Positions 27,098-41,499 of a DNA stretch of 64,000 nucleotides are shown here, one piece after another. The stretch is from Denitrovibrio acetiphilus DSM 12809 (GTDB lineage: Bacteria; Chrysiogenota; Deferribacteres; Deferribacterales; Geovibrionaceae): NCBI RefSeq assembly GCF_000025725.1, contig NC_013943.1, forward strand, positions 744,001 through 808,000, written 5' to 3'. A program made the position numbers and the translations under genes. The first letter of the stretch is position 1. Each line of letters begins with the position of its first letter. The notes beneath the pieces are model-generated. The model had not been told where the DNA came from and searched no databases. It saw only the letters and a program-made list of their open reading frames with translations.

Positions 27098-27126
27098 TAA
27101 TTTAGAATATTTTTCGTTCTGAATTA
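27098..27126 (-). repeat. 29-bp dyad site, copy a
   Basis: Read on the minus strand: arm TAATTCAGAAC, spacer GAAAAAT, arm ATTCTAAATTA. It overlaps the stop codon of the RHH gene. It has the same spacer as copy b and lies inverted to it. Confidence 0.7.
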
Positions 27127-27366
27127 GTCCTGTCTTTCTCTTAGTTCTCTGATTAGGTCGGCTGTGCTGATTGGTTGCATTTCAGGTTTCATGACCTCCT
27201 GTTCCTGAACAGTATTACTTCTTGTACTCTCAGTACCATGCCTGTAATGATGCTCCTTAACCAGATCACAGATAAATGAACTCATATTGTTTGACGATGT
27301 TTTCAGAATCTCATAAATCTCTTCTGTCACTGATATTGTCATTGCCTTCTTCTTGTAGTTTTTCAT
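27124..27366 (-). CDS. Small ribbon-helix-helix-like DNA-binding protein
   Basis: 80 residues. MTISVTEEIYEILKTSSNNMSSFICDLVKEH fits a short beta strand followed by two helices, as in CopG/Arc-type regulators; the remaining 40 residues are polar and may bind a partner. A good AAAGGAGA site precedes the ATG. It stands between two inverted 29-bp sites (27098 and 27438). It could be an orphan antitoxin or plasmid-type regulator; no toxin gene is next to it. Confidence 0.6.
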   Translation of the reverse strand: MKNYKKKAMTISVTEEIYEILKTSSNNMSSFICDLVKEHHYRHGTESTRSNTVQEQEVMKPEMQPISTADLIRELRERQD

Positions 27367-27431
27367 TGCTTTATCTCCTTTAAATAAAATTATTTATAAC
27401 TCTATATAGGCTTTTAAATACTCACGGCATC

Positions 27432-28100
27432 GTGATACAATTCGGAACGAAAAATGGTCTGAATTGGTGGCGTTTGAAAACAGATAAGAAAATCAAAAGA
27501 ATTGAACAGTTAATAAAGCGTCTTGAGTCTGGCAGAGATGTTCCAAGAAAGGATTTGAAAGTTGTCCTGACCGATGAAGAAATGCAGAAACTTGATGATG
27601 AGTGGGAAATCGAGAAACAGAGCAGAACGGACAAGCCTAAAGAGATCGTAGAGTATGAGAAAAGGCTAGGCATTGCTGTAAGGAAATTTGGGCTGTACGA
27701 AAACCTGTTAACCAAGATCGAGCAGGATAAATCGACAACTCTCCATAATAACTGCCAAGATTATTGTTATAAACTGATTGACTATCTCAGAGAACATATC
27801 GAAATGAATCCTGAGCTAGCTTTATGGCTTGACCGTGATATAAACGATAGTCAGCCTGAACCGTCAGGAATGCCCCGAATAGTAACCTCTAAAAGCTATG
27901 AAAATCTGAACAGGCAGAGAGGACCGCTCCCTGCCACAAAGAGGATATTGAAAGAACAGGCATTGCAAGCTGCTTTAGAAAAATTAAAACCTGCTGATTT
28001 GTCTTGGACTGATGCCTCCATCTCAGATACAATTAAGCCTTTAAAAACTGATAAGTCTGATAGTGAGGCTGAAATCATTAAACTACTGGGCTTAGATTAA
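27432..28100 (+). CDS. Uncharacterised, highly charged helical protein
   Basis: 222 codons from a GTG at 27432. The first dozen codons lie within the 29-bp site at 27438 and there is no ribosome binding site before the GTG, so the gene may have been cut at its 5' end by recombination at that site, or may start at ATG 27582. The protein is rich in Lys and Glu with long helices (KKIKRIEQLIKRLESG, EIVEYEKRLGIAVRKFGLYENLL). No family is recognised. It is followed after 26 bp by another unknown gene. Confidence 0.5.
   Translation: MIQFGTKNGLNWWRLKTDKKIKRIEQLIKRLESGRDVPRKDLKVVLTDEEMQKLDDEWEIEKQSRTDKPKEIVEYEKRLGIAVRKFGLYENLLTKIEQDKSTTLHNNCQDYCYKLIDYLREHIEMNPELALWLDRDINDSQPEPSGMPRIVTSKSYENLNRQRGPLPATKRILKEQALQAALEKLKPADLSWTDASISDTIKPLKTDKSDSEAEIIKLLGLD
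27438..27466 (+). repeat. 29-bp dyad site, copy b
   Basis: Arm CAATTCGGAAC, spacer GAAAAAT, arm GGTCTGAATTG. It lies at the start of the 27432 reading frame. Confidence 0.7.
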
Positions 28101-28477
28101 AATAAATTGAACACAGGAGGGTTAAATTGAGAAGCACAATCCGCATGAATTGTAAGTATTATCTTCAAAATAATTATCCAGAATTAATAAACTTCAAAAG
28201 GGGTACAAGCCGATTCTATGAGTATATAAAGAAGACAACGATTGGAGGTTGGTGGTTCACCATAAACACGAAATATATAAAATATGAAGATTATTTTATC
28301 CTCGCTGGTGCTTTAGATAAAACAGAAAATGATTTCAGATTATACAAGATTCCAACTGATTATTTACAAAACCATATAAGTACTTTCTATGAAGATAAGA
28401 GCAGAATTCACCTATTTGTTTCTAAGCTGTCAACGCCGATGAATTTTTACGCCATTCGCCGGCGAATAATTACGCCA

Positions 28478-29251
28478 CTAATCCGTCGTTATTTTCATAA
28501 GTCCAGACTTCCGTTTCTCCTTCAGCCGGTAGCTCTCACCAGTAATATTAACAATGTGGCTGTGGTGTAGCAACCTGTCCACCGTCGCCGCAGTCAGCGC
28601 CTTATTGCCGGCGAAGATGCTTTCCCACTGACTGAAAGGCAAATTAGAAGTAATAACTATAGAGCTCCTCTCATATCTCTTACTGATGACATTGAAGAAG
28701 TGATTACCATTGTCCTCATTCATAGGGATATAGCCAACTTCATCGATGATAAGAATGCTGGGATTCATGATATTCCGCTTCAGATAGGTTTGGTATTTAT
28801 CCTGCCTTTTTGCAATATCAAGCTGCATAAGAAGATCTGTAGCGGTTATAAACTTAACCTTCATCTTATGCTGAGTACCCAGATAACCAAGAGCCGCAGC
28901 AAGATGAGTCTTTCCTACGCCACTAGGCCCGAGGAAGACTACGTTCTCCGCTCGGGGCACGAACGTCAGGCTTGACAGCTCCTGCATCTGTACTTTAGAG
29001 ACACCGGATGCATGTTTAAAGTCAAAGTCGTCAAGGGTCTTTACTGCAGGCAAACCAGCCATACGGAGCATCGTCGTTTTACTTCTTGTGTCTTTTACTG
29101 TAATCTCTGTATCAAGAAGCTTCTCAAGGTATGCTGTATAACTGAGCTCTTCCTTGACTGCTGCCTCTGAGATATGAGGAAACTCAGTCTCAAGACCATG
29201 AAGCCTCAGCTGTGCGCACTTGTCTCTGATTCTATCTATATCTAGGTTCAT
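28478..29251 (-). CDS. istB: IS21 helper ATPase IstB
   Basis: 257 residues of the DnaC/IstB AAA+ type. Walker A is [14 protein letters not shown] (about 108-121) and Walker [21 protein letters not shown] is the sensor region. It regulates the transposase IstA and target choice. Its start overlaps the istA stop by 4 bp. Confidence 0.95.
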
Positions 29252-30294
29252 AAAGCACCTGTAGGAATAAGAGAGTCGTACATATCAAGAGAGCTTGATT
29301 GAACATCTATTTCAGGCACTTCTAAGCTGATTTCCGGCTCTTCTGCTATAGTTGTTGCTCTTGCCGGATATGTGCCCGTGTAAGGAGCAGCAAGAGGCAT
29401 CAGGTGTTCTTTCTCTTCCTGAAACATGTCTATCGGTTTCTTACCAGTAGTGCCGTGTATTCTCTGATCGGCAATCTCTTCATTCCAGTGAGTTACCCGT
29501 ATGTTTGCAGTGTCCATATCCATTATAAGGCCATTCATTCTGAGCTTCGTATACTCAGGGTAATAAAAACTGTGCTTCATATAATTTATGAAGCGCTCAA
29601 CCTTGCCTTTAGTTTTTGCCCTATATGGTTTGCACAGGCGGGGTATGGTGCCATAGTGGCGACACATATCAAAAAACATGTCCTGGAACTTATGGCTTCC
29701 GGTTCCATAGAAGTCACGCTGTATAACAACTGCTTTGGCGTTATCGTAAAGGATTTCTTTAGGCACTCCGCCGAAGTAGTTGAAAGCTTTTATGTGGCAG
29801 TTTACAAAGGTATCTACTTTCTCATCGGTGATGAACTCTGTATAGCTTCTGCGACAGTAAGCTAGTTCGGCTACAAAGACATGGAGCTTTTTATTACCGC
29901 TCTTGACTGTTGCGAAATCTATCTGCATCTGATGACCTGGCGCTGTCTCAAACCGTACAAGCTCTTCTTCCACTGGTTTGGGTCTGACTTTCTGGATATA
30001 GTCTTTAAGGATAGTTATTCCGCCGTCATACCCCATCTCTTTAATCTCTCTGATAAGGACTGTCGCCGGTATCTTGTATGGCAGTGCGCTGGTTATCCGT
30101 TTGTTCAGATAATCCTTGAAAGGGTCAAGCTTACTGAAACGTACCGGATAGGCTTTCTTCTCTGGAAAGTCACTAAGGTTAAGATACTTTGAAATTGTCT
30201 TTCTGCTGATACCTGTCATACGCTCAATCTCTCGCTGGGAATATCCCTGCCGCTGTAATGTGTGAATCATGAAATACACCTCTTTATTCAGCAT
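29248..30294 (-). CDS. istA: IS21 transposase IstA
   Basis: 348 residues. An N-terminal helix-turn-helix ([22 protein letters not shown]) precedes an RNase H-type core with [16 protein letters not shown] and [11 protein letters not shown] giving the D, D and E residues. A Mu-type C-terminal domain follows. It appears intact. Confidence 0.93.
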
Positions 30295-40929: not shown

Positions 40930-40962
40930 TAGATGAACTTCGAATTAATGTTTGAGTTAAAG

Positions 40963-40991
40963 CAATTCAGAATGGTTATTGTTCTAAATTA
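40963..40991 (+). repeat. 29-bp dyad site, copy d
   Basis: Arm CAATTCAGAAT, spacer GGTTATT, arm GTTCTAAATTA, 27 bp after the end of the SEC-C frame. It shares the AAAG before the arm with copy c. Confidence 0.7.
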
Positions 40992-41016
40992 TTTAGTATA
41001 GACATTAATATGAAAT

Positions 41017-41400
41017 TTATAAATTCAATTCATCTCTGCACAGTTTACTTATTTCGTGGTGAAGTTCATTTGTTCTTTCATTAGCATATCTTGCAGCCTT
41101 TTCATACAAATCATCTGAAAGTACGACACTTGCGCTTAATACAACAGCCTGATATTCTGTGATCACTTTATTATAGGATTCCGCATCCGGTTCAGCATAT
41201 TCCATGTTATTAATTTTAGCTATTTTGTGGTTTAAATCTGCCATAGCTTGAATTAACTTGAAAATTACTCGTGTCTTTTCTTCAAAAGCAATTTTTCTTA
41301 ATTCTCTTTTATGATTTCTCCATGACATAAACCATTGTCCAGCAATACCAATACTTGCACCACCTAGTGCGCCGATAACGCCTATCCACGCGTCACTCAT
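41017..41400 (-). CDS. Small single-pass membrane protein with helical cytoplasmic tail
   Basis: About 127 residues from ATG 41400, preceded by AGGTG; a longer start at 41466 is in frame but overlaps the dyad region. Residues 4-22 form a transmembrane helix with glycine zipper spacing (GVIGALGGASIGIAG), followed by a basic stretch (SWRNHKRELRK) that favours a cytoplasmic tail, then long helices. No family is recognised. It is alone between 29-bp sites d and e, which marks it as a single-gene module. A membrane effector role is a guess. Confidence 0.6.
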   Translation of the reverse strand: MSDAWIGVIGALGGASIGIAGQWFMSWRNHKRELRKIAFEEKTRVIFKLIQAMADLNHKIAKINNMEYAEPDAESYNKVITEYQAVVLSASVVLSDDLYEKAARYANERTNELHHEISKLCRDELNL

Positions 41401-41471
41401 AATACACCTGCTTAAATTTATTATTTCATTTATTACATCATAATGCTTTTCAAACTTAACAGGCAATGGAT

Positions 41472-41499
41472 AAAATGGAACGATTTTTGTTCTAAATTG
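41472..41499 (+). repeat. 29-bp dyad site, copy e
   Basis: Left arm degenerate (AAAATGGAAC), spacer GATTTTT, right arm GTTCTAAATTG. The spacer and right arm are identical to copy c and lie in the same orientation. The 165 bp from here to the right island junction hold no gene. Confidence 0.65.

Follow-up and report, generated by a model that had tools for sequence, protein, structure and literature searches.

In the pdif (XerC/D) modules of Acinetobacter plasmids, one or a few genes are enclosed between short dyads, no recombinase is encoded within the module, and mobility is conferred in trans; the dif sites of the Xer system combine a XerC and a XerD arm with a 6-bp centre, and the attC sites of integrons carry RYYYAAC and GTTRRRY boxes. 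Here we describe an array of 29-bp dyads, denoted a to e (Table 1), in a 64,000-nucleotide stretch of the chromosome of Denitrovibrio acetiphilus DSM 12809 (hereafter the window: bases 744001-808000 of a genome that is a single 3.22-Mb contig, called G000 in the comparisons below). The array resembles pdif modules in that its genes are bounded by dyads, no recombinase (of the tyrosine type) is found inside and several sites are present per accessory region, but differs from them in that the arms and centre of the dyads are unlike those of the putative dif of the host, the sites lie in chromosomal islands rather than on plasmids, and there is a longer motif, E. Like integron arrays and clusters of attC sites lacking integron integrases (CALINs), the dyad cassettes consist of compact genes with short 3' tails, are flanked by a site at every border and carry defence-type cargo, and E may correspond to the longer site that integrons have at one end; the cassettes differ from integrons in that the dyads are plain 29-bp sites, no integron integrase was found in G000 and the genes lie in both orientations. 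The best reading is that the dyads work in a mode like that of pdif modules or integrons while belonging to neither. The titles and opening lines of abstracts on the genomic islands of D. acetiphilus say nothing of these sites.

When both strands of the window were searched with the pattern CAATTCAGAAC-N7-GTTCTAAATTG, allowing up to 3 mismatches, 6 strand-matches were obtained at four places (a, b, c and d), compared with a mean of 0.00 in 100 shuffles. The sites are rare: genome-wide the same threshold gave 7, versus 2 for a reversed control pattern. Thus, the window dyads are not due to chance, which counters the possibility, named in the preliminary description of this stretch, that such sites might be scattered at random. 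That description listed five positions, of which a to d are recovered as given; e is real, but starts at 41471 rather than 41472 and has one degenerate arm (arm complementarity 7/11). The 11-bp arms around a 7-bp spacer are also seen as described, and so are the relative orientations: the spacer GAAAAAT is common to a (minus strand) and b (plus strand), making these two inverted, and GATTTTT is common to c and e in the same orientation.

The interpretation of the dyads as cassette junctions that are moved by site-specific recombination, with the recombinase supplied in trans and E as the docking end, is one for which we consider the chances evenly balanced; it rests on the positions of the sites, the variable cargo and one cross-genus comparison. 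In that comparison, the c-d module recurs between two dyads in G006, a member of another genus, with 83% identity between the encoded proteins. At the left dyad, common to both copies, identity rises from 16/60 on the outer side to 52/60 on the inner side, and the dyad itself matches at 10/11 positions of the outer arm, 5/7 of the spacer and 11/11 of the inner arm; therefore, the homologous block ends in the dyad. The likely start codon of the c-d gene follows dyad c by 12 bp, leaving little room for a promoter.

The search for the arm pattern in the genome and its relatives, which had been proposed as a check, yielded two further dyads in G000, x1 at 286 kb and x2 at 289 kb, and clear matches in five of the 12 family genomes. 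Specifically, a model of 12 sites (R1), most of whose matches belong to its own training set, with the exception of G004, was run over the 12 family genomes and gave clear matches in G000, G003, G004, G006 and G009, only marginal ones in G002, G008 and G010, and none in G001, G005, G007 and G011. The G004 site, which was in the training set neither of R1 nor of R2, a model of three sites with their outer flanks, was found by both (E=2.7e-4 and E=2.4e-13, respectively). The resulting 13 sites from five genomes (a degenerate site in G008 was left out) have 11-bp arms and a 7-bp centre (8 bp in G004) and usually show a run of A on one strand; 8 of them pair one AATTTAG-type arm with one AATTCAG-type arm. 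Among 59 genomes, the dyad pattern with up to 2 mismatches matched 10, including 6 outside the family, and the reversed control matched 7, including 4 outside, so that we attribute those outside the family to chance. The exact E pattern had no matches in genome_contigs (from which near relatives may be left out) or in plasmids, and none of the patterns was found in viral_contigs.

All 13 sites are intergenic, apart from overlaps with a stop codon or with a nominal start that is uncertain. Seven of them (a, c, d, x1, x2, G006_2 and G003_2) follow a stop codon at a distance of 0-57 bp; behind d, x1, x2 and G003_2 no same-strand open reading frame (ORF) of at least 80 aa starts within 300 bp, and behind a the ORF of an insertion sequence (IS) transposase starts 65 bp away. 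Could the dyads simply be operators, that is, sites upstream of genes to which a regulator binds? Their palindromic form, the location of c and G006_2 directly upstream of the same gene and that of b between divergent ORFs would fit such a role. Nevertheless, this possibility appears very unlikely: the location of a, d, x1, x2 and G003_2 at the 3' ends of genes argues against operators and speaks against the sites being nothing but promoter elements, the outcome that the preliminary description had named as fatal to its proposal; furthermore, the genes that follow the sites are unrelated and identity breaks at the dyad.

A conserved sequence, motif E, is present on one side of dyads x2, G003_1, G009 and G004, all of which also carry the GGTC variant seen in dyad b. 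E extends 45-80 bp beyond the dyad (75-111 bp including it) and is shortest in G009. In G008, E adjoins a degenerate dyad; this copy was missed by R2 and scored E=1.2e-16 with a further model, R3, in the training of which it was included. A candidate for a longer, attI-like site at the array end is E plus dyad, present in four genomes, in degenerate form in G008 and weakly at dyad e. E occupies a slot beside tRNA-Phe in G000, G003 and G009 and adjoins rnj in G004 and G008, and therefore is more than the flanking sequence of a single locus; the rnj loci of the 11 other family genomes gave no match to the dyad model. Rfam matches above the gathering scores were confined to tRNA and a TPP riboswitch, so that E corresponds to no known RNA. 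Over 50 genomes of the phylum, R3 gave E<=0.05 in 13, five from the family and eight from outside; of the eight, those in G046, G022 and G029 were inspected and judged to be chance, so that none of these three is a convincing E, and the other five, in G012, G019, G030, G031 and G043, are weaker matches.

The cargo next to E differs between related species, as was anticipated for mobile modules: the reverse transcriptase (RT)-Toprim protein of retron I-C in G009, a type II methylase (MTase) with its restriction endonuclease (REase) in G004, a weakly PDC-M36A-like protein (39 bits) in G008, a 174-aa protein with no family match in G003, and, in G000, the x1-x2 block of GAPDH, TauE and a PBP/HTH regulator. 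This last block has no PADLOC match except a weak one in the regulator, so that not all cargo is defensive; GAPDH, the TauE-type exporter and the regulator (L034 10091-12956) are perhaps an arsenate-type efflux pairing. Comparison of the thiL-rnj slot in three species of one genus (L172, L173 and L087) shows three different systems: the PDC-M36A-like protein in G008, Septu in G006, where E is lacking, and the type II restriction-modification (R-M) system in G004.

This diversity at thiL-rnj, along with the integrase genes or tRNA fragments beside tRNA-Phe and tRNA-Leu in several family genomes, is what would be expected of ordinary defence hotspots, with the content swapped by homologous recombination and E, F (a second conserved stretch described below) and the dyads being inherited flanks. 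Such a scenario is, in our view, decidedly unlikely given that 29 bp is a short length of homology for such recombination, that E plus dyad occurs at the unrelated tRNA-Phe and rnj loci, and that bare dyads are found in the window and in G006; the occurrence at unrelated loci and in further regions therefore indicates that the sequence itself has moved. One user of tRNA-Phe of a different kind is the element in G005 (L093 8105-16036), which contains a repeated 3' part of the tRNA and its own 386-aa integrase, and is thus autonomous.

Moved sequence also calls to mind a non-autonomous transposon akin to mobile insertion cassettes, with which the dyad system shares conserved non-coding ends, exchangeable passengers and the lack of an enzyme. 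Under this scenario, E plus dyad and the stretch F would be the two ends, and the interior dyads would be remnants of nested copies. F lies just 3' of tRNA-Phe and is common to G000, G003 and G009, with a weaker counterpart in G004 (42 bp at 83%); E and F flank the cargo in these genomes, and the recurrence of E at two loci is compatible with transposition. We nonetheless regard a transposon as unlikely. E and F are dissimilar, unlike the ends of mobile insertion cassettes: each of 16 pairings was scored in both orientations, and every score was reached by more than 6 of 300 shuffles; no terminal inverted repeats were found between E and F in either orientation (no IS-library comparison was made). 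Furthermore, bare dyads, with neither E nor F, occur within arrays and bound the cassette in the window and in G006, and no target duplication was identified; the rnj locus of G006 and G008 offers no clean empty site for such a comparison. The tRNA-Phe slots showed no duplication of the tRNA at their distal end. Two further observations were dropped: a repeated terminator in G009, as similar terminators recur in that genus, and an F-like match near tRNA-Phe of G008, which lies within an ORF and was judged to be chance.

So which enzyme could act on the dyads? The 7-bp centre suggests a tyrosine recombinase. From the 12 family genomes, 79 of the 83 PF00589 matches, plus one adjoining fragment, were grouped at 35% identity, leaving aside a 758-aa match of G002 and three short frames in G001 and G011. 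XerC/XerD-type proteins, which are found in all 12 genomes, form the only group represented in each of the five dyad genomes. A 12-protein cluster of phage-type integrases (G000, G003, G006, G009, G001 and G008, with its degenerate dyad, but not G004) leans towards the dyad genomes; having been picked post hoc among many clusters, it is a lead and not a result. In G006 (L031 10998-12832), a 378-aa integrase adjoins a 251-aa fragment of a larger tyrosine recombinase, at a distance of about 15 kb from the dyads; the cluster of this integrase is also represented in four genomes without dyads. In G000, the same cluster is represented at 2.82-2.84 Mb by an integrase that is separated by about 12 kb from a 767-aa recombinase.

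The Xer system itself had been implied by the earlier suggestion of a dif/pdif-type site, and indeed short two-arm dyads bounding modules that lack a recombinase, together with XerC/XerD being the sole tyrosine recombinases common to the five dyad genomes, could suggest pdif-type modules moved by the host XerC/XerD. A dif consensus gave 0 matches, but among stretches spanning 1.39-1.57 Mb of G000 we found a putative chromosomal dif, ACGTCCGATAAGATATATTATGTTAAAC (ACGTCCGATAA-GATATA-TTATGTTAAAC), at the sign change of the GC skew (~1,440,499; L153 10498). Its centre is 6 bp, against 7-8 bp in the dyads, and its arms are unrelated to theirs, which speaks against an identity of the dyads with dif or pdif; with XerC/XerD present in all 12 family genomes, most of them free of dyads, movement of this kind is extremely unlikely. 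An integron identity was likewise rejected: of the 10 PF00589 proteins of G000, none exceeded the 265-bit cut-off of the integron integrase family TIGR02249 (the best, at 155.8, is XerD-like). The RYYYAAC/GTTRRRY pair is absent from the 13 site sequences by reading, no attC model having been run. Thus, of the mobile cassette system put forward in the preliminary description, the dif/pdif identity is not supported, whereas other elements are: dyads bound modules, the cargo differs, and identity in the c-d comparison breaks at the dyad.

Returning to cassette junctions as the preferred interpretation, the dyad is probably a docking site for gene exchange. Compact cassettes, often single anti-phage genes or operons, would enter and leave chromosomal islands by recombination taking place inside the dyad. 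The E-extended site, with its ~45-80 extra bp on the outer side, would be the fixed docking end, and the bare 29-bp dyads would be the ends borne by the cassettes. From this arrangement, we infer a recombinase that cuts at the dyads and continuing movement of the cassettes; it would act in trans, being encoded away from the sites. Several observations do not sit easily with this mechanism. No recombinase could be tied to the sites (the survey covered tyrosine but not serine recombinases), every dyad encountered is accompanied by cargo, G009 and G004 lack a second dyad, and beyond chance no sites were found outside the family in the 59 genomes, genome_contigs, viral_contigs and plasmids. The orientation of neighbouring pairs, judged by the A-rich spacer strand, is mixed, with four direct (c-d, d-e, x1-x2 and, weakly, the G006 pair) versus three inverted (a-b, b-c and the degenerate G003 pair). 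Finally, only one cassette has been seen in two contexts, and both copies of c-d carry IS insertions, limiting the comparison to the left end.

The dyad array is located within an island of ~19.2 kb that splits the host tRNA-Leu at the anticodon loop. When the flanks of the island are joined in silico, the resulting sequence folds as a cloverleaf, and G002 and G009 contain an uninterrupted tRNA-Leu that matches both halves; the outer island accordingly has the hallmarks of tRNA targeting, with the tRNA split at its edges and uninterrupted elsewhere. A PF00589 search of the window found no tyrosine recombinase in the island. With its split tRNA-Leu, replacement tRNA and lack of an integrase, the island is similar to tRNA-targeted islands, including tycheposon-like ones and hitcher elements without an integrase; the internal dyads differ, forming a second layer that is not derived from the tRNA. 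In G001, of the same genus, a 3' fragment of tRNA-Leu begins at the same point of the anticodon loop (C26, L192 1493-1550); a tyrosine integrase of 490 aa, whose domain lies ~1.1 kb away, is a candidate for the type of enzyme that served the outer island of the window.

Table 1. Coordinates of the dyads, the island edges and the genes of the array, in positions of the window
Feature	Position	Strand	Remarks
Split host tRNA-Leu, 5' half	22383..22424	+	Left island edge; CTTAAAATCC at both edges
Intact tRNA-Leu(TAA)	22462..22549	+	Island-borne replacement; follows left half
PDC-M36A + PDC-M36B	22783..24537	+	Candidate defence pair; same island
Dyad a	27098..27126	-	TAATTCAGAAC-GAAAAAT-ATTCTAAATTA read on - strand; overlaps stop codon of 27124-27366 ORF
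ORF between a and b, 80 aa	27124..27366	-	No Pfam family at E<=0.01
ORF, 222 aa	27432..28100	+	Nominal start overlaps dyad b; no Pfam match
Dyad b	27438..27466	+	CAATTCGGAAC-GAAAAAT-GGTCTGAATTG
IS21-type istB + rve-domain transposase	28478..30294	-	Inside b-c
HNH protein	32779..33879	+	HNH_4; weak PtuB-like match; ends 37 bp before dyad c
Dyad c	33917..33945	-	Start of homology with G006 that runs on into c-d
NERD (PD-(D/E)XK-type) protein	33943..35520	+	Likely start ATG 33958
NERD protein continuation	35529..35984	+	Another frame; window copy looks broken
Mutator-family transposase	36064..37281	-	Inside c-d; identical protein encoded at 24767-25984
Stretch like SEC-C end of G006 copy	39944..40098	+	Parted from the rest by IS elements
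IS4/5-type ORFs	40152..40915	+	Adjoin dyad d; same ORFs, opposite orientation, at 26270-27033 adjoining dyad a
Dyad d	40963..40991	-	Pattern search
ORF between d and e, 149 aa	41017..41466	-	Pfam matches weak, below cut-off
Dyad e	41471..41499	-	One arm and spacer intact; other arm (TAAAATGGAAC) degenerate
E-like stretch at dyad e	41484..41539	-	Weak, tentative; R2 E=7e-4, needs 17-base insertion
Split host tRNA-Leu, 3' half	41665..41717	+	Right island edge; CTTAAAATCC

The module contents proposed previously hold in outline, with the addition of IS elements: b-c contains the IS21-type element and other ORFs, followed by the HNH gene, and c-d is interrupted by Mutator/IS256-, IS21- and IS4/5-type elements. 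The window copy of the NERD gene looks broken because its G006 counterpart is one ORF through SEC-C. For the ORFs said to encode an RHH protein (a-b) and a membrane protein (d-e), the reading frames exist, but the assignments gained no Pfam match at E<=0.01 in the first case and only weak, sub-cut-off matches in the second. Relatives of the NERD protein elsewhere, among 20 of 31 plasmid records, show 36-39% identity, and those of the HNH protein (6 records) 23-39%; no HNH relative was found in the other 11 family genomes. One of the HNH relatives sits on a Vibrio plasmid, 3.5 kb from a gene for DUF3265, which we take to be a mark of integron cassettes. The dyad model had no match at L146, a locus with a relative of the cargo; the plasmid relatives were not scanned. 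The two copies of the IS4/5-type pair, in opposite orientations and with ORFs no more than 65 bp from dyads a and d, could promote large inversions. Beside the G006 array, an ATP-grasp gene and small ORFs with DPDPEAEFCF-like tails (L029 17945-19327) form what is presumably a cluster resembling those of graspetides, a group of ribosomally synthesized and post-translationally modified peptides (RiPPs).

A broader and more tentative possibility, one that we consider rather improbable, is that E (up to ~110 bp), the 29-bp sites and a recombinase acting in trans make up a cassette-capture system used by this one family and separate from integrons and Xer, by which single anti-phage systems would be traded among tRNA- and rnj-linked slots. 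Defence systems have a rapid turnover; single ones swap without an adjoining integrase, often by a route that is unclear, and a short site combined with a docking end would be a concrete and testable route of this kind. The dyad may also serve as a marker for uncharacterised defence genes, such as those for the 149-, 174- and 222-aa proteins and the NERD/SEC-C proteins, and might lead to a possibly new recombinase.

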